The notes under the pieces: generated by a model | What the model saw: only the letters and a program-made list of their open reading frames with translations | Told to the model about the DNA's origin: nothing | The model's database searches: none | In this document: positions 18,514-44,334 of the stretch, piece after piece | Numbering within the stretch: the first letter of the stretch is position 1 | Layout: the number at the start of each line of letters is the position of its first letter | Origin: an uncultured Gammaproteobacteria bacterium | Lineage (GTDB): Bacteria > Pseudomonadota > Gammaproteobacteria > Pseudomonadales > Pseudohongiellaceae | Length of the DNA stretch: 64,000 bases | Direction of reading: 5' to 3' | NCBI GenBank assembly: GCA_903853385.1 | Contig: CAINTJ010000095.1 | Location: forward strand, 1 to 64,000 | Program-made: the position numbers and the translations under genes

Positions 18514-21057
<2,544 letters not shown>

Positions 21058-21062
21058 TAAAC

Positions 21063-21548
21063 ATGCTGCGCTTCCTGACCCTCGGCTTTTTCACCCTGCT
21101 GTTGACCAGTTGTGGTTTCGCGTTGCGCGGCACAGCCGAGTTGCCGGCCAGTTTGCAGCCGCTGCATCTGGACAACGTCAACGACAGCACGGCAATGGGG
21201 CGGGAATTGATGCGCACGCTGGTCAACAACAAGGTCAAGCTGACCGACACCACCGGCGCCAGCATCTACAGCCTTGCCCTGGGCGCCGAGACCAGCATTG
21301 AACGCGCCATCAGCGTAAATGCCAACGCGCGTGCCGGTGAATATGAAATCATCATGACGGTGCCATTCCAGCTCAAACGTGGCAACGCTGCCTCGATACC
21401 CGAGCAGAGGTTGAGCCTGACCAAGGTTTACCTGGCCGATCCGGAAAATGCTGTCGCCAAAACCGAAGAAGCCTTGATCATCCAGAATGAAATGCGCCAG
21501 GAACTGTCGCAATTGATCCTGCGCCGGTTACAAGCGTTTGCACCATGA
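21063..21548 (+). CDS. lptE: LPS-assembly lipoprotein LptE
   Basis: A 161-residue outer-membrane lipoprotein that plugs the LptD barrel during LPS export. The signal peptide ends in the lipobox LLTSC (Cys at about residue 17), followed by GFALRGTAELPASLQPLHLD, the family's characteristic start. The C-terminus is amphipathic (RQELSQLILRRLQAF). It follows leuS by five bases. In most relatives the next gene is holA; here the stop codon overlaps the start of a broken DUF486 gene instead. Confidence 0.93.
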   Translation: MLRFLTLGFFTLLLTSCGFALRGTAELPASLQPLHLDNVNDSTAMGRELMRTLVNNKVKLTDTTGASIYSLALGAETSIERAISVNANARAGEYEIIMTVPFQLKRGNAASIPEQRLSLTKVYLADPENAVAKTEEALIIQNEMRQELSQLILRRLQAFAP

Positions 21549-21675: not shown

Positions 21676-22647
21676 CTAGTAACCGCGCATCCCACCTTGG
21701 GTTTGCTGCTGTAAAAACCAGTCAAAGGTATGTTGCAAGCCCTGTTCCAGCGAGATGGCGGCCTGCCAGCCCAGTGCTGACAAATGTGACACATCCACCA
21801 GTTTGCGCGGCGGTCCATCAGGTTTGCTGGTGTCAAATACCAGGCTGCCTTTATAGCCGGTGATGTTTGCCAACAAGACGGCCAGCTCACGGATAGAGCA
21901 ATCTACACCAGTGCCAACATTCAGATGCGAGAGTCTCGGCAGGGTTTGTGTCTGATACTGCGCCAGCGGCAGCTCCAGCACATGCACACACGCGGCTGCC
22001 ATGTCGTCGACATGCAGGAATTCCCGCCGGGGCGTACCGCTGCCCCAGATCACGACTTCAGCCAGTCCAGCACGGGCGGCTTCATGCAAACGCCGCATCA
22101 AAGCCGGAATCACATGACTGTTGTCCGGATGGAAATTGTCACCAAGGCCGTAGAGATTGGTGGGCATCACGCTGCGATAGTCGCGCATATATTGACGGTT
22201 GTAGCTTTCACACAATTTGATGCCGGCGATCTTGGCTATGGCATAAGGCTCATTGGTGGACTCGAGCGGACCCGTCAATAAAGCTGCTTCCGCCATCGGC
22301 TGCGGTGCCAGCTTTGGATAAATGCACGAGGAGCCAAGAAACAACAACTGCTGTACTCCGGCCAGATGCGCGGCATGCACAACATTGCATTGCACTTGCA
22401 GGTTTTCGTAGATGAATTCGGCAGGGTAGGTGTCGTTGGCATGGATGCCACCCACTTTGGCTGCGGCCAGATAAATCTGGTCCGGACGCCGGGTCCGCAT
22501 AAAGTCCTGCACGGCAGCCTGATTGGTGAGATCAAGTTCGGCGCGCGATGCAGTCAAGAGCTCTACATCGTTGCGCTGCTGCAGGCAACGCACCAGCGCA
22601 GAGCCCACCATGCCCTTGTTTCCTGCAACAAAGATGCGTCGTTTCAC
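21676..22647 (-). CDS. fcl: GDP-L-fucose synthase
   Basis: A 323-residue short-chain dehydrogenase that epimerises and reduces GDP-4-keto-6-deoxymannose to GDP-L-fucose with NADPH. Seen are the Rossmann motif [22 protein letters not shown] with the catalytic Ser/Cys, the YAIAK tyrosine-lysine pair, and [22 protein letters not shown]. The frame extends to 22782, but GTG 22647 gives the normal length. It lies 11 bases downstream of gmd, whose product is its substrate maker. Its stop lies three bases from the broken DUF486 gene. Confidence 0.95.
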
Positions 22648-22658
22648 TGCAAAGCTGC

Positions 22659-23744
22659 CTATTCGTGATGATCCATGGCTTTGTAACCATGCTCTCTTAC
22701 CAACGCATCGCGTTTGGCAGACTGGAAATCCGCTTGTGCCATCTCTGCCACCAATTCCGCGAAAGTGGTACGCGGGACCCACCCGAGCTGGATGCGTGCC
22801 TTCGATGCATCACCGAGCAGGGTTTCTACCTCGGCCGGGCGGAAATAGCGGGCATCAACTGCGACAATGCAGCGCCCTTTTTCATCATAACCCTTGCGAT
22901 CGATACCACTGCCCTGCCAGCTAATGCCAATCTCAAGTTCGGCAGCTGCAGCATTGACGAATTCTTCCACTGAATGCTGTTCGCCTGTGGCAATCACAAA
23001 ATCATCAGGCTTGGGCTGTTGCAACATCAGCCACATCATCTCGATGTAATCGCGCGCATGGCCCCAGTCGCGTTTGGCAGCAAGATTGCCGAGATACAGA
23101 CAGTCCTGCAAACCCAGCTTGATGCGCGCCAGTGCGCGGGTGATCTTGCGGGTGACAAAGGTTTCGCCGCGATTGGGAGATTCGTGATTGAACAAAATCC
23201 CGTTGCAGGCATACAGTCCATAAGCTTCACGATAGTTGATAGTGATCCAGTACGCATAGAGCTTGGCCACGGCGTAGGGACTGCGCGGATAGAAGGGTGT
23301 GGTTTCCTTCTGCGGGGTTTCTTGCACCAGACCATAGAGCTCACTGGTAGAGGCCTGGTAAAAACGCGTGGTCTGTTCCAGACCGAGGATGCGGATGGCT
23401 TCCAGCAAACGCAGGGTGCCGATTGCATCGGAGTTGGCAGTATATTCCGGCTCCTCGAACGACACGGCCACATGACTCTGCGCGGCCAGGTTGTAGATTT
23501 CGTCCGGGCGCACCTGCTGGATAATGCGGATCAGGCTGGAACTATCGGTGAGGTCACCATGATGCAAAATGAAATGGCGGTTACGGACTTCCGGACCTTC
23601 ATACAAATGATCGATGCGATCAGTATTGAACAGGGAAGTACGCCGCTTGAGGCCATGCACTTCATAACCTTTGTTGAGCAGGAATTCAGCCAGGTAGGCT
23701 CCGTCCTGCCCGGTAACGCCGGTTACAAAAGCCTTCTTCATCAT
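22659..23744 (-). CDS. gmd: GDP-mannose 4,6-dehydratase
   Basis: A 361-residue NADP-dependent enzyme that turns GDP-D-mannose into GDP-4-keto-6-deoxy-D-mannose. Visible marks are [20 protein letters not shown] (nucleotide binding), [31 protein letters not shown] with the catalytic Thr/Ser-Glu, and [20 protein letters not shown] with the Tyr-Lys pair. A GGAG ribosome site lies five bases before ATG 23744, which I chose over the in-frame ATG at 23759. It forms a pathway pair with fcl downstream; manC upstream makes GDP-mannose. Confidence 0.95.
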
Positions 23745-23818: not shown

Positions 23819-24478
23819 TCAGCCGGAAAAATGCTTGGCTATTGCGGCCAGTAACGCCGACGGTGTCGACACTATTTGCGCCTGCGCAGAAACCAGTTGC
23901 ACGCCTACACCATAACCCCACGCCACTGCCAGGAAAGGCAGTCCGGCCCTGGCTGCCGCCACCTCATCATGACAGGTGTCCCCAACATAAATACTGTGCC
24001 GGGGAGTCAATGATTGTGTCTGTAACATTGCCGTAAGCATGCGCGACTTGTCGGCATAGGGGGGGTCTTGCGAGTCCAGACAATAAACCCCGGTGAAGCA
24101 TTCAGCCAGTTTGAATTTGGCCAGTAACCGCTCGGTTGGAAATTTGCGTTTGTTGGTGGCCAGCATCAGCCGGTAGCCTGACTTTACCAAAGCCGGAAGC
24201 AATGTCTCCATTCCCGCATACAACAGCGTGGATTCCAGCCCAGTGCTGTCATAAACCGCTTTGAAACTGCCTATCAATTGCTCAAGTTTTGCCTTGTCAC
24301 TGATGCCGGTCAATGCCGTCAGCGTGGCAGGCAGTGGCGGACCAATCAAATCGTGGCTGACCGGCCGCCGGGGCTTGAGCTGATGCTTGGCCAGCACCTG
24401 TTCCAGCGTATCAAGGATGGCGGGAGCCGAATCTACAATGGTACCGTCAAAATCAAAAATTACAGTATTGCCCAACAT
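23819..24478 (-). CDS. HAD-family phosphatase (Gph-like)
   Basis: A 219-residue haloacid-dehalogenase hydrolase. The nucleophile motif is VIFDFDGTIVDSAP; motif II is LMLATNKR; motif III Lys and motif IV are seen in ADKSRMLTAML and IYVGDTCHDEVAA. Overall it resembles phosphoglycolate phosphatase. ATG 24478 has AAGGA six bases upstream and is preferred over GTG 24499. It sits between manC and gmd, so it may act on a sugar phosphate of the same pathway, but no substrate can be assigned. No phosphomannomutase gene is present nearby. Confidence 0.85.
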   Translation of the reverse strand: MLGNTVIFDFDGTIVDSAPAILDTLEQVLAKHQLKPRRPVSHDLIGPPLPATLTALTGISDKAKLEQLIGSFKAVYDSTGLESTLLYAGMETLLPALVKSGYRLMLATNKRKFPTERLLAKFKLAECFTGVYCLDSQDPPYADKSRMLTAMLQTQSLTPRHSIYVGDTCHDEVAAARAGLPFLAVAWGYGVGVQLVSAQAQIVSTPSALLAAIAKHFSG

Positions 24479-24526
24479 CGTTGTCCTTTTACCCGGCACG
24501 GGCTGCGCGCATGCAGTAAGCCGTAT

Positions 24527-25975
24527 TCATTGGGTGTGCCGTTGATATTTATCTTCGAAGCGCACGATATCATCTTCGCCCAGATAACTCCCTGACTGCA
24601 CTTCAATCAATTGCAATATGGCGTCATGGCGGTTTTCCAGCCGGTGCCTGTCGCCCAGCGGTATGTAAACTGATTGGTTGACATCAACTTCCCTGACTGT
24701 GTCACCGACAGTCACTGTAGCTTTGCCACAGACCACCACCCAATGCTCGGCACGATGATGATGCAATTGCAGCGAAATTTTTTCCCCTGGATTCACCTGC
24801 AGACGCTTCACCTTGAAATTCTCACCCTGGTCGATTTCCTCATACCAGCCCCACGGCCGATAAACACGCAGATTCTGCAAACTCTCGCTGCGGCCCTGCA
24901 GGCGCAACTGTTCCACCACTTTTTTCACATCCTGGGCTGCATCGGTATGCATTACCAGCACGGCATCCTTGGTCTCTACCACGGTGACCTTGTCCAGCCC
25001 GATCACTGACACTTGCCGGGATTCAGCCCGCAGATAGCTGTTGGTGGTATTGATCGCCAGCACATCACCATGAATGGCATTGCCCTTGTCATCGCGATTG
25101 GCCAGTCGCCACAGTGATTCCCACGAGCCGACATCGCTCCAGCCCATGTCCGCCTTCACCACTGCGGCCTGCCGGGTGGCCTGCATTACTGCATAGTCGA
25201 TGGAGTCAGCCGGACACTGCACAAACGCAGCCTTATCGGGCCGGTAAAAACCCAGATCAGTGGTGCGCTGCTGCCAGGCCAGAGTGATCGCCTGGCTTAT
25301 GTCGGGACGGTATCTCTCCAGTTCCTGCAAATAAGTGCCCGCCGTGAACAGAAACATGCCGCTGTTCCAGCTGTAAGAGCCATCCAGCAGGAAGGCCTTG
25401 GCCCGCTCCAGATCAGGCTTTTCAACAAATTGCGCTACTGCCGCCGCACCGGGCAAGGCCGGCAAGAGGGCGCCGCTCCTGATATAGCCATAGCCGGTTT
25501 CCGGATAGCCCGGCGCGATGCCGAAAGTGACGAGCTTGCCGTGTCGGGCAGCAGCAGCGGCCTGCTCTACCGCAGTGCTGAATGCCTGCCGGTTCTGGAT
25601 AACGTGATCGGCCGGCATCACCAGCATCAATGCCTCCGGATCCGGATGCTCGCCCTGGGCCAGATGCAAGGCTGCCAGCGCAATCGCCGGCGCCGTGTTA
25701 CGACCGGTTGGCTCCAGATAAATGGCGGCAGGGTTGTAGCCAGCGCTCTGGCATTGTTCCCGCACCAGGAAACGGTGTTCTTCATTGCAAACCAACAGGG
25801 GTGCTGCCACCGCCAGCTGGGCTGATGACAATTGCATCGCGCGCAGCACGGTTTCCTGCAGCATGGTTTGCGCTGTCTGCAAGGGCAGCAGCTGTTTGGG
25901 ATAGGCTTCACGTGACAAGGGCCACAGGCGGGAACCGCTGCCACCGGACAGGATCACTGGGTGAAGGATGTTCAT
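24527..25975 (-). CDS. manC: Mannose-1-phosphate guanylyltransferase / mannose-6-phosphate isomerase
   Basis: A 482-residue bifunctional enzyme. The N-terminal guanylyltransferase domain has VILSGGSGSRLWPLSREAYPKQ, then FVEKPDLERA. The C-terminal cupin (type II phosphomannose isomerase) has FKVKRLQVNPGEKISLQLHHHR with metal-binding histidines and AEHWVVVCGKA. It should make GDP-mannose from fructose-6-phosphate once a phosphomannomutase, not found in this window, converts the intermediate. The frame extends to 26170, but ATG 25975 gives the family start MNILHPVILSGG. It is first in the fcl-gmd-HAD-manC minus-strand group. Confidence 0.95.
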   Translation of the reverse strand: MNILHPVILSGGSGSRLWPLSREAYPKQLLPLQTAQTMLQETVLRAMQLSSAQLAVAAPLLVCNEEHRFLVREQCQSAGYNPAAIYLEPTGRNTAPAIALAALHLAQGEHPDPEALMLVMPADHVIQNRQAFSTAVEQAAAAARHGKLVTFGIAPGYPETGYGYIRSGALLPALPGAAAVAQFVEKPDLERAKAFLLDGSYSWNSGMFLFTAGTYLQELERYRPDISQAITLAWQQRTTDLGFYRPDKAAFVQCPADSIDYAVMQATRQAAVVKADMGWSDVGSWESLWRLANRDDKGNAIHGDVLAINTTNSYLRAESRQVSVIGLDKVTVVETKDAVLVMHTDAAQDVKKVVEQLRLQGRSESLQNLRVYRPWGWYEEIDQGENFKVKRLQVNPGEKISLQLHHHRAEHWVVVCGKATVTVGDTVREVDVNQSVYIPLGDRHRLENRHDAILQLIEVQSGSYLGEDDIVRFEDKYQRHTQ

Positions 25976-26154
25976 ACGATTGGACGCCTGTTGTATAAGG
26001 GGAAAACAGTAACCATGCCTGCCCAGCAGGGTGCCTTGGAAAGGCCAGGCCAGAATACCCAGCCAATGTAGGGATTGTCGACCTTGGCGGGCAGCTTTTG
26101 CAGGGGAAAGACTCCTGAAATGCAGGGGCTGCGACTTAGCTAGTGCTTGCCGGG

Positions 26155-26183
26155 CTGGCACATCCTGCACAGGCCTTTATACT
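26155..26183 (+). promoter_or_regulatory. Sigma-70 promoter for the methyltransferase/P-loop fusion gene
   Basis: CTGGCA (26155-26160) and TATACT (26178-26183) are separated by 17 bases; they match consensus at four and five positions. The predicted start near 26190 rules out translation starts upstream of it and supports the GTG at 26213. Confidence 0.5.
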
Positions 26184-26212: not shown

Positions 26213-27652
26213 GTGCAAGCACCACCCTCGACACCTGCCACCCCCCAGTACCAGAGCTTTCCGGAGGTCGGCGGCGACTCCAACTCGCTGGAAAAACTGA
26301 AAGCCCTGCGGCTGCCAACGCTGGCCCACAAGAGTTTTCTGGATGTGGGCTGTAATGAAGGATTCTTCTGTGGCTATGCGCTGCATGATGGTGCCAGTCG
26401 CGCGGTGGGCCTGGATGCATCCCCCCTCTACATTGAGCGGGCCCGCCGGCGCTTTCCGGCCGCTGAATTTCTGTGCCAAAGCTGGGACACGCTGCCAGCA
26501 GCAGGCTTCGATGTGATCCTGCTGGCTTCATCGCTGCATTATGCTGCCGATCAAGCGGCATTGATTACACGCTTGATGCAGTTATTGAATCCGGATGGCA
26601 CGCTGGTGCTGGAGCTGGGCGTGTCGACAGAAAGATGCAAGCAATGGGTACAAGTGGATCGCAGCATGGACGTGCGCAGCTATCCTACCTGGCCCCTGCT
26701 CAGCGACATCCTGCAACCCTATGCCTGGAAAGTGATTGGCAACAGTGTGAGCCAGCGCGGGGACCCGGTGCCCCGCCATGTCCTGCATATCACCCGGCGC
26801 AAACCGCTGGTCTATCTGTTGATGCAGGCCTCCGGTTCCGGCAAGAGCAGTGTGGCAGGCAGCCTGCTTGTACCCGCCGGCGTACCGGTGATCAGCGGCG
26901 ATAAAGTACTGACCCAGATCGCTGCGGGCCATCTGGAGGCGCCGGCGGAGTTAAAAGCCCTGCTCGGCCCCGACCTTGATCACACCCGACTTGATGACTC
27001 CTATCGCAAAATTTTCCAGGCCGGACTGCTGGCACCGCTGCTGCAACTCTGGCAGGCCACGGCCGGAGGTGGCTCATTTGCGCTGGATGCCTATATCCCG
27101 GAAGAGCGGCGTGAAGAGGTAGTGGCCTGCATGATCGCGGCCGGCTACCTGGTGGTGACACTCACCATGTCAGGCATGACCGGTCTTGAGCCACGCGGGC
27201 ATCGCCATAGCTCCGCACAAAATTATTTTGACGGGCTTCAGAACCCCGTCATGCAGCACCCCGATCACAGTCCACCCGCTCTCAGCAGAGCGCTGCCTTT
27301 TTCCGGCACCGTGGGTTTTGTCGATTCGGTGACTGTCGATGACCGCTTCGTAAAAGTTGTGGGTTGGGCGGTGCAGACGAACGGAGTCGCTGCCCAATGG
27401 CTGGATCTGTGCATCGATGGTGTTTCCGCTCAGCATCAGCATGTTGCTAAATCTCCTCGTCCCGATCTTCAAAAACGCCTGCACCTCAATTACGACCAGG
27501 TAGGTTTCCGCATCACCATTCCCACGCCTGCCACGCTGGTGCAGACCAATCTGGCGCTGCGTGTGGAAGTCTACGCCGGGGAATCGGCGGCCAGCGCTAC
27601 CAGGCTGTGGTCGATACCGGCTCACAACGTACCGGACCAGTTACCGTTCTGA
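26213..27652 (+). CDS. Fusion of SAM methyltransferase, P-loop kinase-like domain and beta-rich C-terminal module
   Basis: About 479 residues in three parts. Residues ~20-200: class I methyltransferase (motif I FLDVGCNEG at ~43-50, acidic AVGLDAS, and FDVILLASSLHY). Residues ~200-345: a small P-loop domain, QASGSGKSS (Walker A, ~206-213) then VISGDKVL, resembling zeta-toxin or sugar/nucleoside kinases. Residues ~362-479: a beta-rich module (GFVDSV...VVGWAVQT, CIDGV, GFRITIP) like accessory modules I recall beside glycosyltransferases. The frame opens at a TTG (26147) upstream of the promoter; GTG 26213 is preferred. It is divergent from manC, so glycan modification is a reasonable guess, not shown. 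Confidence 0.75.
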   Translation: MQAPPSTPATPQYQSFPEVGGDSNSLEKLKALRLPTLAHKSFLDVGCNEGFFCGYALHDGASRAVGLDASPLYIERARRRFPAAEFLCQSWDTLPAAGFDVILLASSLHYAADQAALITRLMQLLNPDGTLVLELGVSTERCKQWVQVDRSMDVRSYPTWPLLSDILQPYAWKVIGNSVSQRGDPVPRHVLHITRRKPLVYLLMQASGSGKSSVAGSLLVPAGVPVISGDKVLTQIAAGHLEAPAELKALLGPDLDHTRLDDSYRKIFQAGLLAPLLQLWQATAGGGSFALDAYIPEERREEVVACMIAAGYLVVTLTMSGMTGLEPRGHRHSSAQNYFDGLQNPVMQHPDHSPPALSRALPFSGTVGFVDSVTVDDRFVKVVGWAVQTNGVAAQWLDLCIDGVSAQHQHVAKSPRPDLQKRLHLNYDQVGFRITIPTPATLVQTNLALRVEVYAGESAASATRLWSIPAHNVPDQLPF

Positions 27653-43314: not shown

Positions 43315-44334
43315 ATGCAAATAAAAATTGAACAGCTGCCCCAGCGTCTCAAGCAACAACTGCCAGCCCTGCTCTGGATCAGCGGCGATGAAACCTTGCT
43401 GGTGCAGGAAGCCTGCGACCTGATCCGTAAATTTGCGCGTGAGCAAGGCTTTGGCGAGCGCGAAGTCATTGATGCCAGCAAGGGGTTCGACTGGAACCAG
43501 TTGCTGCTCAGCAACAACTCACTGTCACTGTTTGCCGAGCGCAAACTGATAGACCTGCGCGCAGACAAGCTGGATGAGCCGGCTCGGGAAGCGCTGATTG
43601 CCTATCTGGCCAACCCCAACCCCGACAACCTGCTGTTGCTGACTACCGGCAAGATCGAAAAAGCAGCGCAATCGAGCAAGTGGTTTACCAATATCGAATC
43701 CAAAGCCCTGTTCTGCCCAATCTGGCCGGTGAGCGAACAGCAATTGCCACAATGGGTTGAACAAAGGTTGCGCGCGCGCGGGCTCGGCATTGAACGCGAA
43801 GCGCTGCAATTGTTGTGTGACCGCGTCGAAGGCAACTTGCTGGCCGCAGCCCAGGAAATCGAAAAACTGCAGCTGCATGCAAATGGCGACACCGTCACTG
43901 CTGCCAGCGTGCTGGAGCTGGTGGCCGACAATGCCCGCTTCACTGTATTCACCCTGGTCGACGCCTGTGTGGGCGGCAACACCGAACGCGCATTGAAAAT
44001 TCTTGAACATCTGCATGCCGAAGGCGATGAGCCGCTGGCACTGCTGGCCATGCTGGTACGCGAGTTGCGCAACCTCAGCGCGATGCTGGTGGACATGGAG
44101 CGCGGCCAGTCAGCCCGTGACGTCGTGCAGGCACATCGGGTCTGGGGCAACAAGGTGCAGCTGACTGAACGCGCACTGCATGTGCACACCCAGCGCAGCC
44201 TGACGGCCTTGCTGGAACGTGCCCGCGTGATTGATCAGACCGTAAAAGGTTTGCTCAAGCGCTCGGTGTGGGATGAACTGGGCAGCCTAGTGCTGAACTT
44301 CTCAAATCCGCGACTGCTTGTCGGCGTGATATGA
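43315..44334 (+). CDS. holA: DNA polymerase III delta subunit
   Basis: A 339-residue clamp-loader subunit that opens the beta sliding clamp. The N-terminus ([36 protein letters not shown]) and the [42 protein letters not shown] and [13 protein letters not shown] blocks match HolA. It normally follows leuS-lptE directly; here the accessory block lies between, so it must have its own promoter. Its 3' end overlaps the convergent lipA by 33 bases. Confidence 0.95.

Follow-up and report, generated by a model that had tools for sequence, protein, structure and literature searches.

The open frame at 26213-27652 on the forward strand of the window (the whole stretch of DNA analysed here, 64,000 nucleotides) encodes a methyltransferase, a P-loop kinase-type domain and an Ig-like module of carbohydrate-binding type fused in one protein of 479 residues. 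Its most likely role is to cap a cell-surface sugar chain, probably with methyl-phosphate, and we put at about 0.5 the probability that it is a methyltransferase-kinase which caps glycan ends, as an analogue of WbdD and Klebsiella O7 ORF6. We judge end-capping the likeliest role because the functions follow one another in the same order as in these terminators, with a third kinase fold, no coiled coil by a crude scan and an exporter-type module; modification of sugars within the chain comes next. A sequence-only reading of the locus had recognised three domains in one protein and proposed an ordered double modification of a glycan, for example at a chain end. The 479-residue frame, the Pfam matches and the structural models confirm this observation, and its interpretation is supported in part, chain-end capping fitting by analogy and by the gene context of relatives.

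Domains of the fusion protein and their conservation

The frame comprises 479 codons with a GTG start at 26213 and a stop at 27652. The start is backed by alignment with two orthologues, which were found at the same site in two of the ten congeners searched (69% and 61% identity) and adjoin the same TPP-enzyme and manC genes as the window gene. The N-terminal domain (residues about 10-192; 26240-26788, forward strand) carries the SAM motif FLDVGCNEGFFC and matches Pfam Methyltransf_11 (E 4e-13), in accordance with the class I SAM methyltransferase first read there. The P-loop domain follows (residues about 194-345; 26792-27247) and was modelled by AlphaFold2 from a 54-row alignment with a pLDDT of 88.5. 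On its own this part of the window protein matches Pfam AAA_33 weakly (single-sequence search, E 0.018, below the cut-off); the commonest Pfam matches of the relatives are AAA_33 (32 of 54), AAA_17 and Zeta_toxin, with CPT and shikimate kinase also seen. In a Foldseek search no match passed E 0.001 and the best 50 listed are P-loop-type kinases (adenylate, gluconate, APS and dephospho-CoA kinases). VIA-align gave T4 polynucleotide kinase as the best match (Z 9.2, rmsd 3.5, 114 residues), with P-loop kinases throughout among the matches listed. The kinase fold proposed for the middle part was therefore returned by both structure prediction and structure search.

As in AAA_33-like kinases, a Walker A motif (QASGSGKS, residues 205-212; 26825-26848) and a following Asp are present on an alpha/beta P-loop kinase fold. 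This residue, Asp230 (26900-26902), is the candidate general base of the kinase and lies past the second strand; a further acidic residue, Asp292 (27086-27088), lies past the third. P-loop kinases acting on hydroxyls use the Asp past the second strand as their base, and D230 occupies that position. The domain is a candidate hydroxyl kinase. Conserved LID arginines were not seen in the alignment of relatives and none could be assigned.

Relatives were collected by scanning one genome per species in 84,980 species with the patterns CNEGFFC and QYQxFP. As these patterns selected the relatives, part of the invariance of the methyltransferase motif follows from the search itself. The P-loop was not among the selection criteria. 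The 53 relatives found come from Lysobacteraceae, Halomonadaceae, Aeromonadaceae, Accumulibacter, Desulfovibrionaceae and some other proteobacteria, and all 53 keep the P-loop core. Across the 54 rows, window included, K211 and D230 are invariant, G210 and S/T212 are each kept in 53, and position 292 is acidic throughout (D in 45, E in 9). Identity to the window protein, taken over five relatives, is highest in the methyltransferase (58-77%), lower in the P-loop domain (35-66%) and lowest in the beta module (20-67%). The module is both optional and movable, being absent in many relatives and N-terminal to the methyltransferase in three. Domain loss in homologues, which the sequence-only reading had named as evidence against it, is therefore seen for the module, and the methyltransferase is degenerate in one relative, whereas the P-loop core persists in all. 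A P-loop profile added no relatives when run against samples of the window's order and class, and tblastn gave no match in a phage or plasmid collection. One relative lies on a contig labelled Candidatus Micrarchaeota (archaeal MAG; L075:7501-8589), which may mean that the contig was misbinned or that the gene was transferred to archaea. Another (G706/L111), seemingly devoid of the methyltransferase, was left out because its contig ends within the gene.

The beta module and its link to the O-antigen exporter

The C-terminal module (residues about 360-479; 27290-27649) is modelled as an Ig-like beta sandwich (pLDDT 84.8). It matches no Pfam family, and of 37 module sequences none had PF14524 (Wzt_C) among its Pfam matches. 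Structure searches gave no better than marginal matches. Neither a resemblance to the N-terminal domains of TarK/TarL (Z 6.3) nor one to a muramoyl-alanine amidase domain (E 0.003) was strong enough to use. A profile built solely from the enzymes' modules finds the neighbouring Wzt, in its C-terminal domain, at ten Lysobacteraceae loci (E 1e-17 to 1e-27) as well as copies in neighbouring GT2 proteins. Searched on its own (single-sequence phmmer), the window module matches the best-scoring Wzt C-termini with E values of 9e-10 to 3e-9, and hhalign aligns the module profile with that of the Lysobacteraceae Wzt C-terminal domains over 111 columns (probability 99.6, E 2e-24). Whole-genome searches of 24 relatives' genomes showed two strong module copies about 1.4 kb apart in 13 Lysobacteraceae genomes, one lying in the fusion and the other in a frame of 377-475 residues just upstream, identified as Wzt by similarity in ten of the 13 and by position and size in three; a weaker third copy is present in 2 of the 13. 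Modules paired within a locus are no more alike than pairs drawn between loci (permutation p 0.77), and so show no sign of matched specificity. In one genome sampled from the window's class, a module also ends a sulfotransferase-like protein amid glycosyltransferase-like genes (names given by eye). Its occurrence on Wzt, GT2 glycosyltransferases and this sulfotransferase-like protein places the module among glycan assembly proteins, as had been noted for glycosyltransferases; it presumably binds the sugar chain. GT2-like proteins at L062:4932-8087, L065:736-3393 and L063:5545-8913 carry several copies in their N-terminal part.

The gene order in Lysobacteraceae is usually metB-wzm-wzt-fusion-(sulfotransferase or GT)-GT, where metB, wzm and wzt were named by NCBIfam/Pfam annotation in one locus and by similarity in the others. 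Xanthomonads have been described to carry an LPS locus that begins with wzm and wzt after metB (PMC2238763). The fusion is flanked by large glycosyltransferases in Halomonas, Zobellella, Oceanimonas and Accumulibacter, and in many relatives outside Lysobacteraceae no wzm-wzt was found in the genes nearest the fusion. The CBM-bearing Wzt beside the gene is thus seen in Lysobacteraceae relatives. Within the window neither wzm-wzt nor a glycosyltransferase was found near the fusion gene, which makes the function of this copy the point on which our reading is least sure. The window genome has its wzm-wzt on another contig (contig 72), and wzt is present in all 11 genomes of the genus. The Wzt of the window genome ends in PF14524; profile comparison of this domain with the beta module detected no relation, and this Wzt was rejected as a partner with the same module since its C-terminal domain is different. 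The pair (L092:14249-16284) lies behind type II secretion-like genes.

These settings bear on whether the enzyme would act at the end of a chain or within it. It could instead phosphorylate and methylate sugars along or beside the chain, for instance as non-stoichiometric methyl-phosphate, while the chain continues to grow and is terminated by another protein such as the sulfotransferase- or methyltransferase-coiled-coil proteins encoded nearby. A coiled coil is said to mark terminators (PMC11231755), and a crude home-made heptad scan found none of 42 residues in the fusion protein, whose 479 residues are filled by the three globular domains. In several relatives the neighbour combines Sulfotransfer_3 or Methyltransf_24 with a long coiled coil, the usual build of a terminator, and the window copy adjoins sugar-nucleotide genes only. 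Against such internal decoration, a position directly after wzt and a module shared with Wzt are what is expected of an end-group enzyme, and on balance we consider it rather unlikely.

Proteins with long predicted coiled coils, and with a sulfotransferase domain, a methyltransferase domain or none recognised, are encoded near the fusion at L027:11870-13630, L045:14965-16848, L042:3168-5759 and L054:5219-7147; they are possibly separate chain-length proteins. A ruler supplied in trans is not claimed, because genes within two positions of the fusion are no richer in coiled-coil proteins (9 of 159) than those farther away (16 of 348; p 0.66).

By analogy the fusion protein may work like a methyltransferase-kinase terminator. 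In end-capping, the lysine of Walker A, K211, would let the P-loop domain bind ATP-Mg, and Asp230 would serve as the general base in the transfer of phosphate to a hydroxyl of the non-reducing terminal sugar of a cytoplasmic, lipid-linked glycan. SAM would then supply a methyl group, which the methyltransferase would place on the new phosphate or on a hydroxyl next to it, with the C-terminal Ig-like module holding the glycan. In Lysobacteraceae the module of the same kind on the neighbouring Wzt would read the chain for export by Wzm-Wzt. Exporter CBMs are described as reading the terminal modification (PMC11231755; PMC9445017).

The GDP-fucose cassette and a variant with a degenerate methyltransferase

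On the opposite strand of the window lie manC (mannose-1-phosphate guanylyltransferase / mannose-6-phosphate isomerase; 24527-25975, TIGR01479, 662 bits), a HAD-family hydrolase (23819-24499; Pfam HAD_2, E 7e-26), gmd (GDP-mannose 4,6-dehydratase; 22659-23741, TIGR01472, 581 bits) and fcl (GDP-L-fucose synthase; 21676-22647, NF047922, 521 bits, above the cut-off), all four named by Pfam and NCBIfam. The likeliest start of manC is 25975, giving about 240 bp between manC and the fusion gene. A promoter-like site of the fusion gene lies at 26155-26183 on the forward strand, with CTTTATACTT kept in three species and a -10 element, TATACT (26178-26183), that ends about 30 bases upstream of the GTG. 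That of the manC operon (TCGACA-N18-TATTCT) lies at 26052-26081 on the reverse strand. The forward -10 element and both reverse hexamers are sequence common to the three species, in agreement with the divergent promoters that had been placed here from the letters of the window.

Among the 11 genomes of the genus, the fusion is found only in the three that carry manC-HAD-gmd-fcl at this site; a fourth has fcl elsewhere. The link to GDP-fucose that had been drawn is thus local, since relatives elsewhere adjoin wzm-wzt and glycosyltransferases rather than this cassette. One congener that lacks the fusion carries gmd-fcl elsewhere, adjoining an APS-kinase-like gene (L096:406-3116). In the window about 22 kb (21549-43314) separate leuS/lptE-like genes (18580-21548) from a holA-like gene (43315-44334). 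We take leuS, lptE and holA to be usual neighbours, their names in the window being assigned by eye only, and this suggests that the 22-kb stretch, including the fusion and the GDP-fucose genes, is an inserted variable stretch.

The cassette raises the question of a smaller substrate, a free sugar or sugar phosphate, which the enzyme would modify to feed the adjoining GDP-mannose/GDP-fucose pathway together with the HAD phosphatase. Such a role would suit the divergent promoter region common to the two transcription units and kept in three species, the restriction of the fusion within the genus to genomes with the cassette at this site, and structural matches that include small-molecule kinases such as gluconate kinase. 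The linkage of relatives elsewhere to wzm-wzt and glycosyltransferases, and a kind of module that is found on Wzt, GT2 and sulfotransferase-like proteins, make it improbable.

In one relative (G710; L112:5730-10236, contig 1) the gene immediately follows wzm and a wzt that bears the module. Its product has LLVGPESDR as SAM motif, the stretch holding the second acidic motif is gone and Pfam finds no methyltransferase in it, with the kinase residues and the module intact. Kinase and module therefore persist despite decay of the methyltransferase, which is compatible with a kinase-first cap. The next gene encodes a Methyltransf_24 domain and a predicted coiled coil. An ATP-dependent switch for the methyltransferase, or for its assembly with the glycan machinery, with methylation as the only chemistry, would accommodate the weak similarity to any single kinase family and the lack of visible LID arginines, but it is the least probable of the alternatives given the invariant Asp past strand 2, the P-loop kinases as top structural matches and this relative, which lost the methyltransferase motif and retained the P-loop residues.

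Comparison with known terminators

WbdD phosphorylates the terminal mannose and methylates the phosphate (PMC3482155). In WbdD of E. coli O9a / K. pneumoniae O3 (PMC3482155), as in the fusion protein, methyltransferase and kinase follow one another in one chain, but WbdD has a eukaryotic protein kinase fold and a long terminal coiled coil where the fusion has a P-loop kinase and an Ig-like module. WbdD is absent from the sequence matches of the fusion protein in the PDB. Of the features that WbdD and O7 ORF6 share as terminators, a methyltransferase and a same-chain kinase domain, both with predicted activity, are present in the fusion protein and the coiled coil was not found by the heptad scan; the protein-kinase-like fold of WbdD proper is replaced by a middle domain modelled as a P-loop kinase. 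We do not file the protein as WbdD because it was examined for this kinase fold and for the coiled coil and neither was found.

The N-terminal part of Klebsiella O7 ORF6 comprises a methyltransferase, a kinase and an Ig-like CBM, and in vitro it produces a methyl-phosphate terminus; CBMs had not previously been identified in other terminators, as stated in the same report (PMC11231755). Compared by this published description, K. pneumoniae O7 ORF6 has the same domain order as the fusion protein and differs in a kinase that resembles the amicoumacin kinase AmiN and in the coiled coil and GT2 modules that follow.

The C-terminal domain of the Lysobacteraceae Wzt, part of the metB-linked O-antigen exporter, is homologous to the beta module, but sits on an ABC ATPase rather than an enzyme and is not of the PF14524 Wzt_C type. 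The middle domain has its fold and Walker A motif in common with T4 polynucleotide kinase and further P-loop kinases (1ltq, 1ko4, 2yvu), which likewise have an Asp after strand 2; identity to them is 14-20% and no single kinase family fits. The gene for WbdD lies after wzm-wzt, as does the fusion in Lysobacteraceae relatives. A bioinformatic survey of terminators, reportedly published in Glycobiology in 2019 (cwz066), may already include such proteins.

At least two methyltransferase-kinase terminators have been described, with two different kinase folds. We tentatively speculate that the fusion protein could represent a third, independently assembled class of methyl-phosphate terminator, in which the kinase is of P-loop type and a glycan-binding module shared with the exporter replaces the built-in coiled-coil ruler; capping enzyme and exporter would thereby read the same feature of the chain. 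If our hypothesis were correct, a widespread third terminator with a P-loop kinase would mean that this cap chemistry has been put together more than once, and the module common to capping enzyme and exporter would offer a direct test of how ABC exporters recognise finished chains and of how length could be set without a ruler inside the terminator.
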